Of a DNA stretch of 35,541 nt, positions 3,908 through 35,541 are shown one piece after another. Source of the stretch: a virus; IMG/VR virus record IMGVR_UViG_3300024518_003629, positions 1-35,541 of that record. One strand, written 5' to 3'. Position 1 is the stretch's first letter, and each line of letters begins with the position of its first letter. The notes below the pieces were generated by a model. The model saw only the letters and a list, made by a program, of their open reading frames with translations. It ran no database searches and was not told where the DNA came from. The position numbers and the translations under genes were made by a program.

Positions 3908-4230
3908 GATATTAAATCCACATATTTTTTATCACTGATATTTTTAGCCATTCTTCTCTTACTCATGTGTACATAACTATTATTATCTGTTGTCTCTTCT
4001 ACAGTGAATTTATTCACAACTTCCCCTTTTTTGTTTACTTGGCATATTTGCAATACTGCATTTTCAGTTGTTACCTCTAACTTCCCCATAAACTCCTTAA
4101 ATTTTTCAAAGTCCTGAAACTTTAATACTTCTCGTAAAAATCTTCCAAAAGCGTCGAAAGGTTGTTTTCCATGAATCTCTACTAATTCCTGAAAATTCTT
4201 TTTGATAATAAAAGTTTTTGGTATTAACAT
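3904..4230 (-). CDS. Hypothetical protein (108 aa)
   Basis: The ATG at 4230 is preceded by AGGAGAGCGGAAA, a strong ribosome-binding site. The protein starts MLIPKTFIIKKNFQELVEIHG, is mixed alpha/beta, and ends with a basic stretch (MSKRRMAKNISDKKYV). A second frame (4106-4348) overlaps its first 125 bases. No known motif. Confidence 0.75.
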   Translation of the reverse strand: MLIPKTFIIKKNFQELVEIHGKQPFDAFGRFLREVLKFQDFEKFKEFMGKLEVTTENAVLQICQVNKKGEVVNKFTVEETTDNNSYVHMSKRRMAKNISDKKYVDLIS

Positions 4231-4348
4231 TTTCCGCTCTCCTGATTAATTGTTGTAAAGCTCTTATCCTATCAGGGGCAGCGCCAAAAAACAACGCTTC
4301 TTTCAATTTGAATTTATTCCAATCTAATATACTGCTTTGTAAATCCAT
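4106..4348 (-). CDS. Overlapping out-of-frame gene (80 aa), first of the replication unit
   Basis: The ATG at 4348 lies about 18 bases downstream of the predicted transcription start and has a good AAGGGG ribosome-binding site. Residues 1-40 (MDLQSSILDWNKFKLKEALF, then a helical RALQQLIRRAEN) look like real protein. Beyond that the frame overlaps the 3904-4230 gene and becomes Arg/Trp/Phe-rich (SWKTTFRRFWKIFTRSIKVS), typical of an alternate frame. Either it is a small gene with a long overlap, or translation shifts into the next frame. Moderate support only. Confidence 0.5.
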   Translation of the reverse strand: MDLQSSILDWNKFKLKEALFFGAAPDRIRALQQLIRRAENVNTKNFYYQKEFSGISRDSWKTTFRRFWKIFTRSIKVSGL

Positions 4349-4358
4349 TTCTCAACCC

Positions 4359-4402
4359 CTTGTTATATATAAATTATATATAATATTTATATAAATATCA
4401 AG
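4359..4402 (-). promoter_or_regulatory. AT-palindrome promoter element, copy 1
   Basis: On the minus strand: TTGATA (4401-4396), a 17-bp spacer, TATAAT (4378-4373), a near-perfect sigma70 promoter. CTTG and CAAG bound the element and the middle is an imperfect palindrome of TATATAAAT-type sequence. Transcription would start near 4366 and open the replication unit at 4348. Shares its core with the elements at 6165, 7631, 32467 and 34983. Confidence 0.8.
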
Positions 4403-5176: not shown

Positions 5177-5860
5177 TTAATCTAGATTATTTTGTTGAGG
5201 TTCTTCAGCGCTTGTTTGTTGAGCCTTTTCAGCACTCGCTTTCAGAGCTATTTCAATATGCTTATCGAATATTTCATTGATTCTTTTATCTTTGGTAAAT
5301 TTATCACCATAACCTTTCTCGCCTTTTTTCCATAAAATATCCAATGATTTAGGATTCTTTTGCACAATTTTACATTGTTTATCAAACTCTTCGTGATTTA
5401 GCTCTCTTGGCTTTTGTGGAGCTGGTTTCTTTATTTGGGGCTTTCTTCTTTGTTGTTGTTCTGAATACCCTTCTAACTCCTCCGCTAAGACCCCTTCACC
5501 AACTGCATCTCTAAGAGCCCTACCCTTTGCCCTAGTTTCCGCCATTCGGACAATATGAGGTTTTATGAAGTCACTTACATTACCTGGTGCAGCGTCCCCA
5601 ATCCCGGTAAATGTTTTTAATATTTCTTCCCCTAATTCCCCCTCATCCATTATCACAACAGCTCTAAACATTGCCACATTTTTATCATTTTCGTAGGGGT
5701 TCATAATCATTTCAGTTTCAATTGACTTTAAGCCCATCCTATGAGCCTTTTTAAGAACTCCGTTGTAAGTGACATAAGATTTACCTTTTATGTCAATCGT
5801 ATCACCGGCTAATTCATCTGGATGGATTGCATTTTCACGGTTATGTTTTCTTTCATTCAT
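5177..5860 (-). CDS. Recombination-type protein, possible Rad52/Sak-like annealase (227 aa)
   Basis: Residues about 22-130 hold a segment I associate with phage annealing or ssDNA-handling proteins: YVTYNGVLKKAHRMGLKSIE, a strand pair FRAVVIMDEGELGEEILKTF, then TGIGDAAPGNVSDFIKPHIV and RMAETRAKGRALRDAVGEGV. The basic RMAETRAKGRALR helix would suit DNA contact. The C-terminal 95 residues are a Q/K/P-rich linker and a helical tail ending in QQNNLD. Neighbouring SSB, RusA-like and coiled-coil genes fit strand annealing during replication. Family assignment is from memory of the motif only. Confidence 0.8.
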   Translation of the reverse strand: MNERKHNRENAIHPDELAGDTIDIKGKSYVTYNGVLKKAHRMGLKSIETEMIMNPYENDKNVAMFRAVVIMDEGELGEEILKTFTGIGDAAPGNVSDFIKPHIVRMAETRAKGRALRDAVGEGVLAEELEGYSEQQQRRKPQIKKPAPQKPRELNHEEFDKQCKIVQKNPKSLDILWKKGEKGYGDKFTKDKRINEIFDKHIEIALKASAEKAQQTSAEEPQQNNLD

Positions 5861-5861
5861 T

Positions 5862-6155
5862 TTAAGCTACCTCTATTTCATATGTGGCCACATATATTTT
5901 GTTTGAAAGTTTAGCTTCTAGCAAAGTGTACATCAAATTTTGACCATCATGCTCAAAGACTGAACTGGTCGGAAGCCCCATGTCATTTTGTTCGGTTGGG
6001 AATTGTATTTGTACAATGTTATCAACAATATCAATATCAATACTACCAGGTGCACAGTTATCTTCTAAGCCTACTACATTAATGTGAACCGTAATATCAT
6101 CTGATATTTCGTCACCTAATTCGTCTGCATCTACCCATTCAACTAATTCAATCAT
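5862..6155 (-). CDS. Hypothetical acidic beta protein (97 aa)
   Basis: First gene behind the promoter element at 6165-6209, with ribosome-binding site AGGGGAGA eight bases or so before the ATG at 6155. Very acidic N-half (WVDADELGDEISDDITVHIN, IDIDIVDN) and beta-strand pattern throughout. Its leading position and acidic surface would suit a DNA-mimic or inhibitor, but nothing in the sequence proves it. Confidence 0.75.
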   Translation of the reverse strand: MIELVEWVDADELGDEISDDITVHINVVGLEDNCAPGSIDIDIVDNIVQIQFPTEQNDMGLPTSSVFEHDGQNLMYTLLEAKLSNKIYVATYEIEVA

Positions 6156-6164
6156 TATTCTCCC

Positions 6165-6209
6165 CTTGTTTGATATATAAAATATATATAATAATTATAT
6201 AAACACAAG
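6165..6209 (-). promoter_or_regulatory. AT-palindrome promoter element, copy 2
   Basis: Minus strand: TTGTGT (6208-6203), 16-bp spacer, TATATT (6186-6181), followed by the TTTATATAT arm and CAAACAAGGGG, which merges into the ribosome-binding site of the 6155 gene. Same core as the elements at 4359, 7631, 32467 and 34983. Confidence 0.75.
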
Positions 6210-6211
6210 GG

Positions 6212-7093
6212 CTAAAATAACTCTGGGATAGATTTCTTTACTTTCATGATAACATGTCTTTTTAATTGTTTGTAATCAATTTGAGGGTCTTTATTTTCCT
6301 TAATGAAATTCCATGACTCCTCTCTGATAAGGTCATAATAAACCGTGTTAAGTAGTCTAGGAATATATTTAGTTCTCCAACCGTCTTCAGCATTCCGAAT
6401 CTTCTCATAGACCTTTTGAACAAAGTGAGGGGTGATATATTTATCTGTAATTTTCTTTTCTACAGCCAATTTTTCTTTAATATCCAAAGGGTCATTCATT
6501 GCTCTGTGTTTATCTTTGAATTCATTTCTCACAATTTTAGCCCAAGTTTGACGGCCATATTTATTTTGATAAGAATAATTCTTAAGCACAACCCCCTCAC
6601 CAATTCCTTCATCAATTAGATAAGTGTTTTTCTCACACATTTCATAAAGAGTTTCTGGTTTTGCGTCTTCAATTCTACACAAAGGAGGAATGAATTCTAT
6701 TTCAAATTCTCTTAAAACATGGGCATAGTCATTATAATGAATTACCCCACTTGGACCGTAAACATCAAATACATAGAACTTTCTCCAAGCTGTTTTTCTA
6801 TATGTCTTCAAAGAATGAGGGATTAACCATTCACCAAATAAACGCCAATCAGGATAGAGTAAGAGCAAATTGGCAAAACGCTCATCTTCAAGAATAGCCT
6901 TCATAAATCCTTGATTGTCATCATCTAAGGAAAGCTCACGATTTCTTGAACCACACTTTAGCTCGTTCCCTTTTCGCCATACAGAGCCGTTTGACCCGTC
7001 TAGTTTAGGGAATACATAAACAACGCCCTCTTCAATTCCTTTTGTTTCTACAGTTTCATATCTTTCAACATGCTGATATCTTTTGAAATTCAT
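6212..7093 (-). CDS. Rnl2-type RNA ligase (293 aa)
   Basis: Nucleotidyltransferase motifs in order: motif I K30-LDG (adenylated lysine), motif III FGEWL (86-90), motif IIIa FYVFDVY (106-112), motif IV EGVVLKN (166-172) and motif V WAKIV (184-188). A helical C-terminal domain of about 100 residues follows, as in T4 Rnl2 (334 aa). It would seal 3'-OH/5'-phosphate RNA ends using ATP through a lysyl-AMP intermediate. The ATG at 7093 follows CAGGAGATAGA and lies 23 bases below tRNA-Ser, which points to repair of nicked tRNA. I see no polynucleotide kinase/phosphatase partner in the window. Confidence 0.92.
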   Translation of the reverse strand: MNFKRYQHVERYETVETKGIEEGVVYVFPKLDGSNGSVWRKGNELKCGSRNRELSLDDDNQGFMKAILEDERFANLLLLYPDWRLFGEWLIPHSLKTYRKTAWRKFYVFDVYGPSGVIHYNDYAHVLREFEIEFIPPLCRIEDAKPETLYEMCEKNTYLIDEGIGEGVVLKNYSYQNKYGRQTWAKIVRNEFKDKHRAMNDPLDIKEKLAVEKKITDKYITPHFVQKVYEKIRNAEDGWRTKYIPRLLNTVYYDLIREESWNFIKENKDPQIDYKQLKRHVIMKVKKSIPELF

Positions 7094-7115
7094 TCTATCT
7101 CCTGGTTAAAATGTA

Positions 7116-7200
7116 AAGAGAATGAAGGAATTGAACCCTCGCCAGTTTTATCTGGGCCACGCCTTAGCAAGGCAGCACATTACCACTCTGTCAATTCTCC
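7116..7200 (-). tRNA. tRNA-Ser (anticodon GCU)
   Basis: Class II tRNA. Acceptor stem GGAGAAT pairs with ATTCTCT, and the D-arm contains GAGTGGTAA. The anticodon loop is TTGCTAA with GCT at the anticodon positions, flanked by GCC/GGC pairs. The long variable arm is CCAG-ATAAAA-CTGG, and the T-arm is GAGGG-TTCAATT-CCTTC. No CCA is encoded. It reads serine AGC/AGU codons. It sits between a tRNA-like element and the RNA ligase. Confidence 0.9.
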
Positions 7201-7209
7201 GTCTAAAAG

Positions 7210-7281
7210 GCCGTAGGGAGGTATCGAACCCCCTACTTTTATGTCTAGACTCCCACCTGGGCTCTACGGCATGTCTACGGC
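7210..7281 (-). tRNA. tRNA-like element or decayed tRNA, no assignable anticodon
   Basis: The 3' half is tRNA-like: T-arm GGGGG-TTCGATA-CCTCC directly followed by acceptor strand CTACGGC. The matching 5' strand GCCGTAG occurs twice, at 7281-7275 and 7270-7264, as an 11-bp tandem repeat, giving 72 or 61 nt. The middle does not form normal D and anticodon arms. It folds instead as one imperfect hairpin (TAGA/TCTA plus CCC-AGGT-GGG). No 5-bp stem with a T33 loop could be found by hand. It may be a pseudogene, or a tRNA mimic processed with the downstream tRNA-Ser. Confidence 0.5.
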
Positions 7282-7293
7282 ATTATACCCCAA

Positions 7294-7464
7294 TTAATTT
7301 CTAGTGTATAGTCTTTTAAGCTGTTTAAAGTTTAACATTCTGTCCCTAACACACCCTTTTTTAAGTTTTTTAACGCCTAAAAAAGCTGTGTACAAAACAA
7401 CTCTTTCTTCTTCCGTTTGGCTTAGAAGATATTTTCTTAATTGTTTTACTCGTTTTCCATTCAT
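7294..7464 (-). CDS. Small basic phage protein (56 aa)
   Basis: Starts MNGKRVKQLRKYLLSQTEEE and ends NFKQLKRLYTRN. The ATG at 7464 overlaps the TGA of the regulator gene (ATGA). Very basic and helical. The NGKRVKQLR start and the CVRDR...LKR end resemble a widespread group of short phage proteins of unknown function. It lies directly before the tRNA pair. Confidence 0.7.
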   Translation of the reverse strand: MNGKRVKQLRKYLLSQTEEERVVLYTAFLGVKKLKKGCVRDRMLNFKQLKRLYTRN

Positions 7465-7622
7465 ACTTTTAGTTTTTTCTTTTTAAAATCTTTACGTAAA
7501 AGTTCCATAACGTAAGCGGTCATGTTTCCCCTATGGCCCGCTAGTTTGGAAGCTGCTTTAATTGTCTTTTTAAACGCTGGCTCCATCCAAAATAGGACGG
7601 AGGTTATTTCTTCACTTTCCAT
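7461..7622 (-). CDS. Ribbon-helix-helix-like small regulator (53 aa)
   Basis: A beta-strand region (residues 5-12, ITSVLFWM) is followed by helix 1 (PAFKKTIKAASKLAG), a turn (HRGNM) and helix 2 (TAYVMELLRKDFKKKK). This is the MetJ/Arc layout with the common S/T-A-Y-V-x-E-L-x-R helix-2 signature. Such proteins bind operator palindromes as dimers through the strand. The start ATG at 7622 follows AGAGGTTTGC. Its own upstream region carries the palindromic AT element at 7631-7672, which makes it the best candidate for the protein that reads the five-copy element family. That link is inference. Confidence 0.75.
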   Translation of the reverse strand: MESEEITSVLFWMEPAFKKTIKAASKLAGHRGNMTAYVMELLRKDFKKKKLKV

Positions 7623-7630
7623 GCAAACCT

Positions 7631-7672
7631 CTATATGTTATATAGGTAATATATAATAATTATATAGGCTTG
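7631..7672 (-). promoter_or_regulatory. AT-palindrome element, copy 3 (no clear -35)
   Basis: The core TATATAATTATTATATATTA matches the other copies, but at the usual -35 spacing the sequence is AGTCAA, not TTGAnA, and the flanking CTTG is on the opposite side. It lies directly upstream of the ribbon-helix-helix gene and just after the receiver-domain gene. It could be a weak promoter or an operator for autoregulation. Confidence 0.6.
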
Positions 7673-7673
7673 A

Positions 7674-8048
7674 CTATACCTTTCTACATTTGACATTAAT
7701 TAGAAAGTCTATATGTGAAGTTAAATCTTCCATTTTATCTTTACATAAATAAGTGTCATAACCACTTAAGCCTGCAACTGTGGTAATGCTTTCTTCATGT
7801 CCTGTAAGGATTAGGAGGGGAATTCTAAACTTAAACTTAAGCTCAACTAGCTCCTGGTTTAGTTTATAGCTTTTGTCAGGCAAGTTAACATCTAATATGA
7901 TTAAATCATACCTGTTTCTTTTAAGGGCTTCTAGTCCCTCTGTAAGGGTGTATTTTGATTCACAGTCATAATGGCCTTCGACCTCCATTTTAGACTTTAT
8001 ACCATAACAAAACCCTTCATTGTCATCTATTAGGATTATCCTTTTCAT
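7674..8048 (-). CDS. Stand-alone response-regulator receiver domain (CheY-like, 124 aa)
   Basis: All phosphorylation-site residues are present: acidic pair D8-D9 (IILIDDNE), phosphoacceptor D53 (LIILDVNLP), Thr82 (LLILTGH) and Lys103 (YLCKDK). Length equals one receiver domain, with no output or DNA-binding domain. In bacteria these domains take phosphate from histidine kinases and signal by protein contact. No histidine kinase is in the window, so phosphate would have to come from the host. The gene overlaps the 3' end of the membrane-protein gene by 26 bases and is the last gene of the late unit. A role in late control or host signalling is inferred. Confidence 0.92.
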   Translation of the reverse strand: MKRIILIDDNEGFCYGIKSKMEVEGHYDCESKYTLTEGLEALKRNRYDLIILDVNLPDKSYKLNQELVELKFKFRIPLLILTGHEESITTVAGLSGYDTYLCKDKMEDLTSHIDFLINVKCRKV

Positions 8049-9943: not shown

Positions 9944-12334
9944 TTAAGACATGTTTTTAGCTATTGTTTTTCCCATATATACGGTTCCATCCCATATCAA
10001 TTCTACTAAATCTACTGCATTTATTGCGTTTGTAGGTACAAAAGCCCCATCTGTTGCATCCCAAATAACCGTTCCCGGCCAGGTAAAAGTTGTAGTTGGA
10101 GTAGACGAGCCTTGACTAAACTTAATGAAATACCTTGTTACAACAACGGGATTACTTAAAGTTACTGTTGAAATAGTGGCTTCGTCACTTAAATCTAAAA
10201 GAACACCTTGCCCTGAATTCCAATTAATAGCTAGGGTAGTGCCGGAAGCAACAACCCCCTGACCTAAAAAAGAGTCTTGACCATTTACAAAGAAATTTCC
10301 ATTTGGAATCGATACATTTTCACTAGTATCTATTTTAATTCCGTTGTTGGTTCCTAAAGAACCTGAATTACTAATAACAAAAGCATCTGTATCAGAATTA
10401 TGTAAACCAAAAGTCCACCCCCCACTTGTGCCAATTCTAGCACCAAAGTAAGAGTCACCCGTTGTTTCACCACTTGGAACAGATGTTATTATTCCAGAAC
10501 TAGTAGAGCTTGCATTTTGTTCGTGAAGTAAGGCACCTGTAGCAAAACTTAAATCCTCATTAGCCCAATAAGCTTTGCTTCCTTTAAAGCTGACCTCGTT
10601 AAAATTTCCAGAAATAGCAGAATAGTTTGCTCCGTCTGGCTCTAATGTTGAATCATCAGAAGTTAAAGCACCAACAAATAAATTCATTGTGCCACCTGTG
10701 ACTACATTAAAAGTACTCGTTGGGCTGGCCGTTGTAGTTAAAACATGAGCATGCAAAACAGATAAATCTAATGTATTTGTAGCATTTAACTTAAAAACTG
10801 AATTTGTTCCTGGGTCATCAAGAAATAGAGAACTGATACAAACAGAACCACCATTCATTAAGAAAGCATTTGTTAAAGAATCAACCACACTACCAGAAAA
10901 GAATAAAGAAGAGGCATTTTCAACTGTAACCCCGTTTTCTTGGTCATTTATAGACACTCCACTACATACAACCCCTTCGGCACCATTTACATATAAACCA
11001 CTAGTTCCGGAACCTTTATCAGAATCTAAAACACAGTTATTTAAATTTGCTCTAACTGTAGCAGAATCAAAAGCGATTCCATATCGTTGAATGTTTGTTG
11101 TTCTTACATTTGTGATATTTGTATCAATAGCAGTTGCTAGACTTATTCCATCTTGGAATCCAGAAATATAAACATTCTCTATCTCTAAGCTTTGGCAATC
11201 GTTTGTAGCAATTGCAATGTTAGTTTTAGCAGCATCACTTTGAAAACCTATATCCCTAATCGATGCAAAATCAACCGTTGTTCCTGTACTTAAATCAAGT
11301 GCATTATCAGAGTTTACAGCATGTTTAATTTGAGTTGTAAGAGGGCCAGAGCCAACCAGCTGAATATTATCAGTGGTTATTTGTAGGCTTGAACCAATAT
11401 TAAATACACCCGCCCTTAATTTTACTGTTTTAAGTTCTGCGCTTCCAGCTGCTGCATCAATTGCGGCCTGAATCTCTTCAACATCATCCGTTGTCCCATC
11501 TCCAGTAGCTCCAAACCATTCTCCATAAATAGCATCAGAAGATCCTTCTCCAAATACATAACTTCCAGCACCTGTAAAAAATGTACCACAAGTTTGGTCT
11601 ATTGTGGAGTTTATTGTAAGGGTTGTTCCACCATCTGCACTTAATTTGGCATCCCCACCCCTTCTTAAACTTAATCCAGCTGGAAAAGTAACGCTACTTG
11701 AAAACTTAAATGTTCCATTATCGAATAATATGTCATGCTCTTGCCCTGAAACACTCACATAAGTAATTACTTTACTGACATTTGTTTCGTCATCTGTTGC
11801 ACCGTCCCCAGTAACTCCAAACCATTTAACATTAATTGGGCCTTCAAATAATCGAATCCAACGCCCTGTCCCACTATCAGGAGCGAAAACAATTCCTCCA
11901 TCAGCTGTTGCGCTACTATCTGGGTCAAAATAAAACAACCCTCCGCCTCCATCACCTGCAGTTGTAAAGCCTGTGACCATGGCCATAACACTAGTTCCAT
12001 TTGCTCCAGGGTTAACAGCAGTCATCAAAGCAATTGATTCATAACGCCTAAAGTCTTGAGCTGCTGAAGAGATATTATCTACCGTCCAGACATCAACCTC
12101 AGCATCCGTTCTTAGTATAAATTTATAAGAACCATCTTCTAGCCAAATATCAGCTTCACCCCTGGAGTTTAAAACCGTTGGGTGAGCATTTGCGCTTACC
12201 GAAGATTGACTTGGGAATGTATCCTTTGGGTTAGAAGTTCCCGCTGCAAAAGCATATAGTTTATAACCGTTGGCAAGATTCCCACTAGTATCTAAAGCCT
12301 GAAACTTTGGCCAGGGTGTTAAAACATTCGCCAT
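9944..12334 (-). CDS. Tailspike with two pectate-lyase-type beta-helix modules (796 aa)
   Basis: The N-terminal 90 residues (PWPKFQALDTSGNLANGYKL, ADIWLEDGSYKFILRTDAEV) form a virion-attachment domain. A linker contains WFGVTGDGATDD (GDGATDD at 176-182) and a second EWFGATGDGTTDD (278-284). GDGxxDD is the usual first turn of pectate-lyase-like beta-helices, so the module start is present twice. The rest is repetitive strand-turn sequence to about 560, then a chaperone-like or lectin-like end (PVVVTRYFIKFSQGSSTPTT). Position after the three ejection-type genes equals that of P22 gp9. It should bind and perhaps cut a surface polysaccharide. The ATG at 12334 is in a TAATG overlap with GGAGG upstream. 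Confidence 0.88.
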   Translation of the reverse strand: MANVLTPWPKFQALDTSGNLANGYKLYAFAAGTSNPKDTFPSQSSVSANAHPTVLNSRGEADIWLEDGSYKFILRTDAEVDVWTVDNISSAAQDFRRYESIALMTAVNPGANGTSVMAMVTGFTTAGDGGGGLFYFDPDSSATADGGIVFAPDSGTGRWIRLFEGPINVKWFGVTGDGATDDETNVSKVITYVSVSGQEHDILFDNGTFKFSSSVTFPAGLSLRRGGDAKLSADGGTTLTINSTIDQTCGTFFTGAGSYVFGEGSSDAIYGEWFGATGDGTTDDVEEIQAAIDAAAGSAELKTVKLRAGVFNIGSSLQITTDNIQLVGSGPLTTQIKHAVNSDNALDLSTGTTVDFASIRDIGFQSDAAKTNIAIATNDCQSLEIENVYISGFQDGISLATAIDTNITNVRTTNIQRYGIAFDSATVRANLNNCVLDSDKGSGTSGLYVNGAEGVVCSGVSINDQENGVTVENASSLFFSGSVVDSLTNAFLMNGGSVCISSLFLDDPGTNSVFKLNATNTLDLSVLHAHVLTTTASPTSTFNVVTGGTMNLFVGALTSDDSTLEPDGANYSAISGNFNEVSFKGSKAYWANEDLSFATGALLHEQNASSTSSGIITSVPSGETTGDSYFGARIGTSGGWTFGLHNSDTDAFVISNSGSLGTNNGIKIDTSENVSIPNGNFFVNGQDSFLGQGVVASGTTLAINWNSGQGVLLDLSDEATISTVTLSNPVVVTRYFIKFSQGSSTPTTTFTWPGTVIWDATDGAFVPTNAINAVDLVELIWDGTVYMGKTIAKNMS

Positions 12335-27887: not shown

Positions 27888-28081
27888 TATTTAGTAGTCT
27901 CTTTGTATACTTCGTCTAAAATGTTTTTATCAATTTCGTCTGCTATTTTATTAGCGAAGTCTTGAATAAGTGTTGAAGTGCATTTTTTTCTATGTTCTTT
28001 AATATCTCTTGTTATTAGTCCTCCACATTTATTGCATGAGTACTTCAGCATTTCTTCAATGGTCATTTTTGCTTCAATCAT
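27887..28081 (-). CDS. Small zinc-finger-like protein (64 aa)
   Basis: C16-x2-C19-x10-H30-x3-C34 (CNKCGGLITRDIKEHRKKC) forms one C2HC metal site, followed by a helix (LIQDFANKIADEIDKNILDE). TAATG at both ends. A nucleic-acid or protein-binding role near terS is plausible only by motif. Confidence 0.75.
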   Translation of the reverse strand: MIEAKMTIEEMLKYSCNKCGGLITRDIKEHRKKCTSTLIQDFANKIADEIDKNILDEVYKETTK

Positions 28082-28308
28082 TAGCTTTTAATCCTAGCAA
28101 TCTTTTCATTTGGTTTAGGTGAGTATCCATAAGGAAAATCAACCGTTCCATTTGGGTTTATTTCTAGCCAACATTCAATAGTATCATTAATAAATGACAC
28201 TTCATTTTCTATTGCTTTGTCTAGTTTTTCATTCCAGTTAGTACTGGGCCTTTTACTTATCTCATTAGCCTTATTCTCAATTGTTGTTGTGTTAGAATCT
28301 TTGCTCAT
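28081..28308 (-). CDS. Hypothetical first gene of the late unit (75 aa)
   Basis: MSKDSNTTTIENKANEISKR is polar and disordered. Then comes a helix (EKLDKAIENEVSFINDTIEC) and a Pro-rich end. It is the first gene after the terminator at 28349-28378. The predicted -10 ends about 8 bases before its ATG, so the mRNA may have almost no leader. Confidence 0.7.
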   Translation of the reverse strand: MSKDSNTTTIENKANEISKRPSTNWNEKLDKAIENEVSFINDTIECWLEINPNGTVDFPYGYSPKPNEKIARIKS

Positions 28309-28315
28309 TATATAG

Positions 28316-28344
28316 AATCTATATATTTATTCAATATAAGTCAA
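28316..28344 (-). promoter_or_regulatory. Probable late promoter
   Basis: Minus strand TTGACT (28344-28339), 17-bp spacer, TAGATT (28321-28316). It lies in AT-rich DNA between a terminator and the first late gene. It is only partly similar to the five AT-palindrome elements, as expected if it is controlled differently. The short distance to the ATG is odd. Confidence 0.5.
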
Positions 28345-28348
28345 ATTG

Positions 28349-28378
28349 AAAAAGCCCAGCTCAATTAAGAACCGGGCT
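28349..28378 (-). terminator. Rho-independent terminator closing the early accessory unit
   Basis: Stem AGCCCGG/CTGGGCT (28378-28372 with 28359-28353 in the minus transcript, one G-U pair), 12-nt loop, followed by five U (28353-28349). It separates the early block from the late promoter. Confidence 0.85.
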
Positions 28379-28400
28379 CTGTAGGGGGGAGAGAAAAAGT

Positions 28401-31484: not shown

Positions 31485-31967
31485 CTAGTCTATCTCCTTT
31501 AGTTGTGTGCCGCATTTAGGGCAGAAGTTTGTTTCTTCTTTGATTGTTTTTGCAACATATTTTCTTGATATGTCTAAAGCGTAATTAGAAATAGTATTCG
31601 TATGTTTACACTTAGCTCTTAGCTCCATGAGTTTCTTAGCTTTTATGTCTTTAATTTCTTGTTTAGTTTTAAATCTTAATTGAATTCCATCTCTAATTTC
31701 TGGGTCTTCAGATAATTCCAATTGCTTCTTTTCTTCTTTCCAAGCTTTGCTTTTCCAAAAATCAAGTACTTCTAATTGTTCTTCGTTAAGGGTTTTTTCT
31801 ATTGCGTCAAATTCTTGACATTCTCCAGCTGATAAAAAAGGAGGGCCTTCTTCTCCTTTTTCTTCTCTCTCTAATACTCTTTGAAGTAAATCCTTACCTT
31901 TTTCTGTTAAACCCCATGAATCGACTCCATCGTTATTCCATATTACACCTTTAAAATATTCACTCAT
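31485..31967 (-). CDS. Hypothetical protein with C-terminal zinc ribbon (160 aa)
   Basis: The N-domain starts SEYFKGVIWNNDGVDSWGLT, with a helical acidic middle. The C-terminal 45 residues hold CKH and FCPKCGTQL, a split zinc ribbon. Long charged helix at 60-110. The start at 31967 follows GGGAGAGAGAA. The zinc ribbon suggests nucleic-acid or protein binding; role unknown. Confidence 0.75.
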   Translation of the reverse strand: MSEYFKGVIWNNDGVDSWGLTEKGKDLLQRVLEREEKGEEGPPFLSAGECQEFDAIEKTLNEEQLEVLDFWKSKAWKEEKKQLELSEDPEIRDGIQLRFKTKQEIKDIKAKKLMELRAKCKHTNTISNYALDISRKYVAKTIKEETNFCPKCGTQLKEID

Positions 31968-32069: not shown

Positions 32070-32447
32070 TTATTTGTTGTAATAATCGAAACAAACACTT
32101 TCAACTTCGTAAAATTGAACAAAGTTATTGGCTGTAACAACTGCAATTCTCATATCTTCTGCAATTAGATTATCACCTTTTTCACTTGGTTTAAATGAGG
32201 GTGGAAAAACTTTCAATACAACAGCTGGCGAGCCAATAGCGGGACATCTATATCTTGTTTTACCTCCAACGTTTTTCTGTGTTATCACATCCCCTTCTTT
32301 AAATAAAGGTTCTTTCAAGCCACCGATTAAATCAGAAATCATTTCTAATTGTTCCTCTTTGCTCATGCTTACTGGCTCATCCTTCCCGCTGCGCGACCCT
32401 CTTTCTTCCATGTCTCGTTCCATTCCTTCAAGTAATTCTTTAAACAT
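32070..32447 (-). CDS. Hypothetical early protein (125 aa)
   Basis: First gene after the AT element at 32467-32509, with CAAGGAGTTAAG before the ATG at 32447. A helical charged N-half (LLEGMERDMEERGSRSG) and a beta-rich C-half (KEGDVITQKNVGGKTRYRCP, AVVLKVFPPSFKP) that looks like a small barrel. No family recognised. Confidence 0.72.
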   Translation of the reverse strand: MFKELLEGMERDMEERGSRSGKDEPVSMSKEEQLEMISDLIGGLKEPLFKEGDVITQKNVGGKTRYRCPAIGSPAVVLKVFPPSFKPSEKGDNLIAEDMRIAVVTANNFVQFYEVESVCFDYYNK

Positions 32448-32466: not shown

Positions 32467-32509
32467 TTGTTAATATATAAAATATATATAACTATTATAT
32501 AAATCCAAG
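32467..32509 (-). promoter_or_regulatory. AT-palindrome promoter element, copy 4
   Basis: Minus strand TTGGAT (32508-32503), 16-bp spacer, TATATT (32486-32481), then the TTTATATATTAAC arm. Same geometry as copy 2 and placed just upstream of the 32447 gene start. Confidence 0.75.
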
Positions 32510-34337: not shown

Positions 34338-34632
34338 TTAATTTTCCTAGTATTAGGAGTCTTTTATGTTCAGGAATTAGATTTACTATTTCTTCAAAAG
34401 ACGGAGCTTTCTCTTCTCCTAAAAACTCTTTTCTAATATTATCTACAAATCCTAATTCATGGGTAAATACAGCCCTTCCAAGTTCTTTTTCTAAACACAT
34501 ATGAAAATGAGAAAAATCCATGCAAAGCTTTTCTTGAAAAAGTTGAAACTTCACAACTTCATTTGGTGTCCATTTTTTCCATACTTTACTTTCTGCAAGC
34601 TCTATGGCTTGTTTTTCTGTCAGTTCTTTCAT
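34330..34632 (-). CDS. Conserved small phage protein (100 aa)
   Basis: The segment SKVWKKWTPNEVVKFQLFQE, then KLCMDFSHFHMCLEKELGRAVFTHE, is a pattern I have seen in other phage genomes (W..w....v.FQLFQ..LC..F..FH...E..L.R.V.THE). The fold and role are not known to me. A helical C-terminus with PSFEEIVNLIPEHKR follows. ATGA overlap upstream. Confidence 0.72.
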   Translation of the reverse strand: MKELTEKQAIELAESKVWKKWTPNEVVKFQLFQEKLCMDFSHFHMCLEKELGRAVFTHELGFVDNIRKEFLGEEKAPSFEEIVNLIPEHKRLLILGKLND

Positions 34633-34967
34633 TCTTCAACCTCTATAGGGGATAAACCTTCTGCTAGCATATAATCACAGTTATGAAAATCTGCTTCTGC
34701 TTCTTCTGGAGTTCTGTAGATGTCTGAAAGGCGCCATTCTTTAGTAGTTCTGTATCTGTGTAAGTATTTCTCAACTGTTTTCTTAGGTTCTATGTAGAGT
34801 TCCCAAGGCCAGCAATAGAAACAGTGCATCTCATTTTTTTGGTTATCTACACAAAAAAAAGCATTTGTTCCGAGGTATAACACTATAACCCAAGAATCTT
34901 TTGACCATTCGCCATGCCTAACTTTGTCCCCAATATTAAACTTTCCTATAAACTCTTCTCTAGTCAT
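34629..34967 (-). CDS. Hypothetical early protein (112 aa)
   Basis: First gene after the element at 34983-35023, ribosome-binding site AAGGAGAGAGCAAA. The N-half is a beta-barrel-like domain (FNIGDKVRHGEWSKDSWVIV, CYCWPWELY region with clustered Cys/Trp) and the C-half is helical (RLSDIYRTPEEAEADFHNCD). Unknown function; the first gene of an early unit often acts on the host. Confidence 0.72.
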   Translation of the reverse strand: MTREEFIGKFNIGDKVRHGEWSKDSWVIVLYLGTNAFFCVDNQKNEMHCFYCWPWELYIEPKKTVEKYLHRYRTTKEWRLSDIYRTPEEAEADFHNCDYMLAEGLSPIEVEE

Positions 34968-34982: not shown

Positions 34983-35023
34983 GTTGTATATAAATATTAT
35001 ATAATTAATATATAAACATCAAG
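34983..35023 (-). promoter_or_regulatory. AT-palindrome promoter element, copy 5
   Basis: Minus strand TTGATG (35022-35017), 17-bp spacer, TAATAT (34999-34994), flanked by CTTG. It drives the first early accessory unit at 34967. The stop of the 39-aa gene lies inside the element. Confidence 0.75.
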
Positions 35024-35138: not shown

Positions 35139-35541
35139 TATCTAGTCCTTTTTTTGGTTAGTCGCTTTATTATTTCTTGAATATCGTGTTTTGGTTCTGG
35201 CTCTTTAGCCATTTTAAGGTACTTCTTGTGTTGTGGATGTTCTGGGGGGTACTTGTCAGCGAAAAGCCAACATTGTTGTTCCCACGACATTGCAGGCTCA
35301 TCATAGGGTAATTTATAGCAGTCTGAAGAGTTTCTTTCCTTAAGAGCCATCCAAATTTCTTTAATCTCTCTGGGTTTAGGCATAAACTTTCCCTTAGCTC
35401 GGAATTCTTTAAAACAATCTCTAAGTATTTCAGGGTCGTGATTTTCCGAAAAGTTCTCTTCTGCCCAAGTATTAGCTTGAATCTTAAGGGTATCCTCTGA
35501 ATCAATTTTTTTTCCTAGCGATATATGGGTTATAACCAATT
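35138..35541 (-). CDS. Helicase-loader-like replication protein, 5' end wraps to position 49
   Basis: Within the window the frame is open to the end. Across the circular junction it extends to an ATG at 49-47 with AAAAGGAAACAA upstream, giving 147 residues that begin MELNRGIATVIYEQL. The segment NHDPEILRDCFKEFRAKGKFMPKPREI resembles the helical core of G39P-type and lambda-P-like loaders (a helix, then F.P...EI). It starts inside the 3' end of the initiator gene and follows it, the order of initiator-loader pairs in lambda-like and SPP1-like phages. The helicase it would load must come from the host. Confidence 0.7.
   Translation of the reverse strand, partial: LVITHISLGKKIDSEDTLKIQANTWAEENFSENHDPEILRDCFKEFRAKGKFMPKPREIKEIWMALKERNSSDCYKLPYDEPAMSWEQQCWLFADKYPPEHPQHKKYLKMAKEPEPKHDIQEIIKRLTKKRTR
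35533..35541. repeat. Terminal overlap identical to bases 1-9
   Basis: TAACCAATT occurs at both window ends. Merging the copies gives a 35,532-bp circle in which two overlapping genes read through the joint. This is what a circular or headful-packaged, permuted genome gives after assembly. Confidence 0.75.

Follow-up and report, generated by a model that had tools for sequence, protein, structure and literature searches.

Three TATATA hexamers at 11-bp spacing mark five putative promoters of an unclassified phage, with a diverged copy at its late promoter

Arc of phage P22 is a small phage repressor of the ribbon-helix-helix (RHH) class; its half-sites, separated by roughly one helical turn, are located inside a promoter, and it acts at one control region. 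RelB, another RHH repressor, is reported to bind as dimers to 6-bp repeats that share one helix face and whose spacing is essential; its E. coli operator relO contains four [A/T]TGT[A/C]A hexads forming two adjoining 12-bp half-sites, extends from -10 to +17 and controls one operon (available part of PMC2812701). In mycobacteriophages a single repressor acts at many sites throughout the genome, the stoperators, which are asymmetric and also stop elongation (available part of PMC9283540). The phage described here resembles all three. Like relO, its elements are repeated 6-bp sites on one helix face at a promoter; unlike relO, they consist of three TATATA hexamers at 11 bp that overlap the spacer and the -10 box, and they recur at six promoters. 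As in the Arc operators of P22, to which the phage appears related in type, the sites are about one turn apart inside the promoter, but the operator sequence differs and no Arc-like ORF is detectable in the window. As with stoperators, one phage repressor, here putative, would serve many sites across the genome, but in the form of multi-hexamer arrays at promoters only. The operator type as such has precedents; what is new is the occurrence of such sites at six promoters of a single phage, in versions of three and of two hexamers. An open-access literature search, with most subscription journals outside its scope, returned no paper linking an RHH operator to TATATA, and the available portions of the open-access literature on phage RHH regulation did not contain this arrangement.

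The window, that is, the whole stretch of DNA analysed, is a single virus record with a 36% G+C content and its main genes on the minus strand.

IMGVR_UViG_3300024518_003629, positions 1 to 35,541 (35,541 bases): IMG/VR record of an unclassified phage

The families of its portal, scaffold and coat proteins suggest a P22-like podovirus; the nearest phage match of its terminase (52%) is a predicted methanogen virus. The sequence taaccaatt is present at both ends of the record (1-9 and 35533-35541), a 9-base overlap that suggests a complete, circularly permuted genome.

At five places the minus strand has the same layout, a perfect TATATA hexamer occurring three times at a start-to-start distance of 11 bp, with two variable 5-base linkers in between.

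E1, 4366..4402, minus strand: CTTG and hexamers at 4366/4377/4388; TTGATA-17-TATAAT; upstream of ORF 4106-4348
E2, 6174..6209, minus strand: CTTG and hexamers at 6174/6185/6196; TTGTGT-16-TATATT; upstream of ORFs 5862-6155 and 5177-5860
E3, 7639..7676, minus strand: no CTTG; hexamers at 7639/7650/7661; weak TAGTCA-17-TATATT; upstream of ORF 7461-7622
E4, 32474..32509, minus strand: CTTG and hexamers at 32474/32485/32496; TTGGAT-16-TATATT; upstream of ORF 32070-32447
E5, 34987..35023, minus strand: CTTG and hexamers at 34987/34998/35009; TTGATG-17-TAATAT; upstream of ORF 34629-34967

All 15 hexamers are perfect and the spacing is exactly 11 bp, with linkers and flanks that differ among the copies. 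TATATA is its own reverse complement; the array can therefore be read equally as direct and as inverted repeats. The five elements all lie between ORFs, face one direction and end 16-26 bp ahead of a start codon. A repeat finder, unprompted, recovered the five copies as one repeat family. The pattern TATATAANNNTTATATAWWWTWTATATA, with up to 3 mismatches allowed, matched the five element places only (12 strand matches, compared with 0.00 in 100 dinucleotide shuffles). Leave-one-out position weight matrices (PWMs) gave each left-out copy a score of 21.1-37.5, above everything else in the window; the top non-element place was always 28307 on the minus strand (14.7-18.5), followed by scores of at most 12.8. 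No further TATATA triple at 11 bp is present in the 35,541-base window. The five-copy family proposed in the first-pass annotation, facing one way before the first genes of units, is thereby confirmed, and scanning the window with a motif built from the five copies, as it had suggested, returned intergenic elements and no other full triple. Its TTGnnn-16/17-TATATT/TATAAT/TAATAT pairs are found in the four copies E1, E2, E4 and E5; the CTTG it gave to all five precedes hexamer 1 by 4 or 5 bases in these four and is missing from E3, and the "palindromic centre" it saw over the -10 box understates the regular three-block structure. A role as RNA hairpins was rejected, the E4 region folding no better than shuffles (z -0.23).

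The -35 and -10 hexamers stand 16 or 17 bp apart, within the 16-18 bp expected of sigma-70-type promoters. The E1 pair matches sigma-70 at 11/12 positions and is the best such match in its half of the window; E2, E4 and E5 have partial pairs with TTG, as read from the sequence, and E3 a weak one. The distance from CTTG to the hexamers varies by 1 bp, as expected of a -35 box recognised independently of the array. An RHH operator is expected to consist of short repeats that overlap a promoter and follow one another at roughly one helical turn, and here 15/15 hexamers keep the 11-bp spacing. We consider it probable (about 0.6) that the elements combine two control functions, each being a sigma-70-type promoter overlapped by a three-hexamer operator, probably for an RHH repressor. 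The promoter part would be CTTGnn as the -35 box with an AT-rich -10 box, and the operator the three TATATA blocks on one helix face; hexamer 1 would lie in the spacer, hexamer 2 would reach into the -10 box and hexamer 3 would sit close to the transcription start. A small DNA-binding protein, in all likelihood an RHH one, would then occupy neighbouring hexamers as adjacent dimers and keep RNA polymerase out.

The same elements could be read as plain strong sigma-70 promoters in which a conserved AT block aids melting or fits the host polymerase, with no repressor involved. TATATA melts easily, and both the E1 match and the flexible -35 spacing agree with this reading, which we nevertheless regard as unlikely. 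Generic sigma-70 scans were no richer than shuffles (49 sites vs 52.8, and 49 vs 55.9), so the conserved block far exceeds what sigma-70 needs. Sigma-70 alone does not predict perfect conservation within the spacer and downstream of the -10 box, and it leaves perfect spacer hexamers in a fixed 11-bp phase unexplained. Since a bare promoter needs no perfect, phased hexamers at these positions, a hexamer-reading protein likely acts at the elements. Matches of the array in other genomes, described below, also weigh against plain promoters, four of five TTGAC-array matches fronting RHH operons.

The top non-element place of the PWM scans is the late promoter, which turned out to contain a sixth copy next to a hairpin.

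28309..28344, minus strand: sixth, diverged element; hexamer 1 degenerated to TATTGA, the other two perfect and still spaced at 11 bp
28351..28380, minus strand: strong terminator-like hairpin of the intrinsic type (z -4.67), just upstream of the late promoter

On the minus strand the late promoter reads TTGACT-TA-TATTGA-ATAAA-TATATA-GATTC-TATATA, in the same register as E1; an alternative promoter pair, TTGAAT-16-TATAAT, uses the same hexamers. The PWM score of the late element is 16.9, compared with a maximum of 13.6 over 40 Markov genomes. Outside E1-E5 it holds the sole 11-bp TATATA pair of the window, and such a pair arose in 2/300 order-3 Markov simulations of the genome minus its elements. 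The ATG of ORF 28081-28308 follows hexamer 3 directly, with no space for a ribosome site, so that this start is tentative and the message may be leaderless. The unit starting at 31967 (block 31967-28401) is without an element and is preceded by a hairpin-rich 102-bp gap.

These two observations change the earlier picture. The late promoter had been called different, and it in fact carries the same array with hexamers 2 and 3 intact; the elements had been said to mark every non-late unit, and block 31967-28401 has none. Of the shared repression proposed earlier, there is good support for promoters overlapped by a common site, and one repressor is the best interpretation. The data do not support a purely early programme, as a weaker copy stands at the late promoter and a large non-late block has none; the sixth copy at 28309 rules out an early-only regulon. 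One repressor would impose a common threshold on five units and a different one on the late genes, because five promoters have the full operator and the late one a two-hexamer version. A more specific proposal, that a single RHH-class repressor too diverged for current profiles runs all six promoters and that hexamer count (three vs two) orders transcription, is tentative, and we think it unlikely in this full form. If it were true, the phage would run much of its early and late transcription from one operator type, with thresholds set by hexamer count.

The candidate regulator named by the first-pass annotation is the first gene behind E3.

7461..7622, minus strand: 53-aa ORF, a regulator candidate by position only

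Its place is that expected of an autoregulated repressor; otherwise its assignment as the regulator is a guess. A low-confidence model (mean pLDDT 65) contains two helices, residues 15-28 and 34-49. Searches of Pfam, PHROG and PDB gave no match for the protein, and its model returned nothing from Foldseek. By eye it looked RHH-like, which profiles do not bear out: it ranks 114/214 among the window ORFs against an RHH profile built from 32 RHH loci. The family libraries, run on part of the window ORFs, and the RHH profile, run on all 214, identified no credible RHH protein that could be a cognate nearby regulator. The best-scoring ORF (hhalign E 4.9e-4) matched over 28 columns and lies antisense to the large ORF 9944-12334. 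Possible regulators are a diverged RHH protein, a protein of another fold and a host protein. Just before E3, at the end of the structural region, ORF 7674-8048 (minus strand) encodes a response-regulator receiver domain on its own (PF00072, 45.1 bits, cut-off 30.2).

The same array was searched for in cellular genomes. CTTG followed by the array gave 12 matches in genome_contigs. Two of them, in Doudnabacteria and homologous to each other (L364 and L367), are operons of an RHH antitoxin and a RelE/ParE-like protein; a third, from DPANN (L365), is probably another such operon, with an RHH match over 18 columns only, and the other nine are without such support. TTGAC followed by the array was found in 4/379 genomes in the phylum of a Doudnabacteria genome, and the reversed pattern in 0. 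At all four loci (L405-L408, two already among the CTTG-array matches and two new) an RHH-like ORF starts at the array (profile E 8.5e-7 to 5.5e-4), 18-28 bp away in three and with the array overlapping the listed ORF start at L408. A RelE/ParE-like ORF then follows, with Pfam ParE over the cut-off for one. Three of the four antitoxins seem to form one family, and the loci therefore amount to about two independent cases. The phylum of G005 gave 1/199 (a Clostridia locus before a pyruvate-kinase-like gene) and that of G004 0/299, for a total of five matches in 877 genomes, 4/5 at RHH-antitoxin/RelE-ParE-like operons. L405-L408 resemble the phage elements in having, right at the first gene, three TATATA hexamers at 11 bp inside a TTGAC promoter; they differ in having a single copy that fronts a toxin-antitoxin-type pair, whereas the phage has a multi-promoter set.

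Viral contigs (viral_contigs) were scanned for TATATA triples at 11-bp spacing, with 12-bp spacing as the control. Each scan gave at least 120 matches, and the 11-bp set also contains 36 stretches from a pattern modelled on this window. Many viral contigs contribute to few families, and the IMG/VR arrays adjoin varied genes. Among the matches listed, the array is followed after 9-22 bp by an RHH gene in three unrelated viral families (L017, L018 and L151), the gene at L017 belonging to the Arc family (26.4 bits, cut-off 20.4). Neighbours with an RHH-profile E of at most 1e-3 numbered 23/117 proteins at 11 bp vs 0/70 at 12 bp; counted by cluster, the figures were 4/73 vs 0/58 (one-sided p ~0.09), or 4/17 vs 0/20 for clusters starting within 30 bp (one-sided p ~0.04), all among the matches listed. 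One of the four RHH clusters (L048) is a doubtful ORF cut by the locus end, which makes the cluster test weak by itself. In all, the array fronts RHH genes at 4/4 loci in one phylum and, among the matches listed, in three viral families, with weak cluster-level statistics. Two ORFs of L371, L033 and L340 had appeared RHH-like by eye and failed or were weak on the profile. At L041 (11714-12647), judged separately from the neighbour-protein set, a triple array has a ParA-like gene and an RHH-like ORF as neighbours, which may together form a partition system that relies on this type of site. If the operator reading holds, TATATA-11-TATATA-11-TATATA would be a usable marker for RHH regulators and antitoxins that annotation has missed, in phages as well as in bacteria with small genomes.

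These parallels bear on who might read the array. It could be the target of a phage activator or an RNA-polymerase-modifying factor giving middle-type timing, since it is common to several unlinked units whose -35 boxes are partial matches only. However, the array covers the spacer, the -10 box and the start region, where bound proteins usually block polymerase, and the operons that parallel it elsewhere are of the antitoxin type, for which autorepression is usual; we judge activation improbable. Still less probable is silencing by a host nucleoid protein of the H-NS or MvaT kind. Such proteins silence AT-rich foreign DNA, and one preferring TpA-rich DNA might recognise arrays of such extreme TpA content, but the 11-bp register and the 15/15 perfect hexamers are more exact than they need. 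We reject an archaeal host with the TATATA blocks as archaeal TATA boxes, to which the terminase match to a predicted methanogen virus might point, because one TATA box with no -35 would suffice there and we see three boxes, CTTG at a near-fixed -35 distance in 4/5 and P22-like portal and coat families. The operator reading, with a repressor probably of the RHH class, is the one we prefer.

Relatives of the phage did not extend the element set. Searches with the terminase, the portal, the 53-aa ORF, 7294-7464 and 5177-5860 found no close relative phage, giving distant ones only (best 55%) or nothing, so the elements could not be compared across sister phages. The first-pass annotation had suggested scanning relatives for the motif, and the terminase and portal relatives (L009-L015 and L052-L125) contain no 11-bp TATATA pair; no relative with the same element set was found. 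Another virus, IMGVR_UViG_3300035507_000297 (24-27% G+C; L019, L022 and L051), has several paired TATATA arrays at 11-bp spacing, with no RHH neighbour seen by the RHH profile.

Between E2 and E3, a stretch at 7203-7273 (minus strand) is tRNA-like, inspection by eye showing a T-arm and acceptor ends that match, and was called neither by ARAGORN nor by cmscan at E up to 1. Beside it, at 6212-7200 (minus strand), tRNA-Ser(GCT) adjoins an RNA ligase (phrog_548, E 1.3e-41), in what looks like a tRNA-repair pair.
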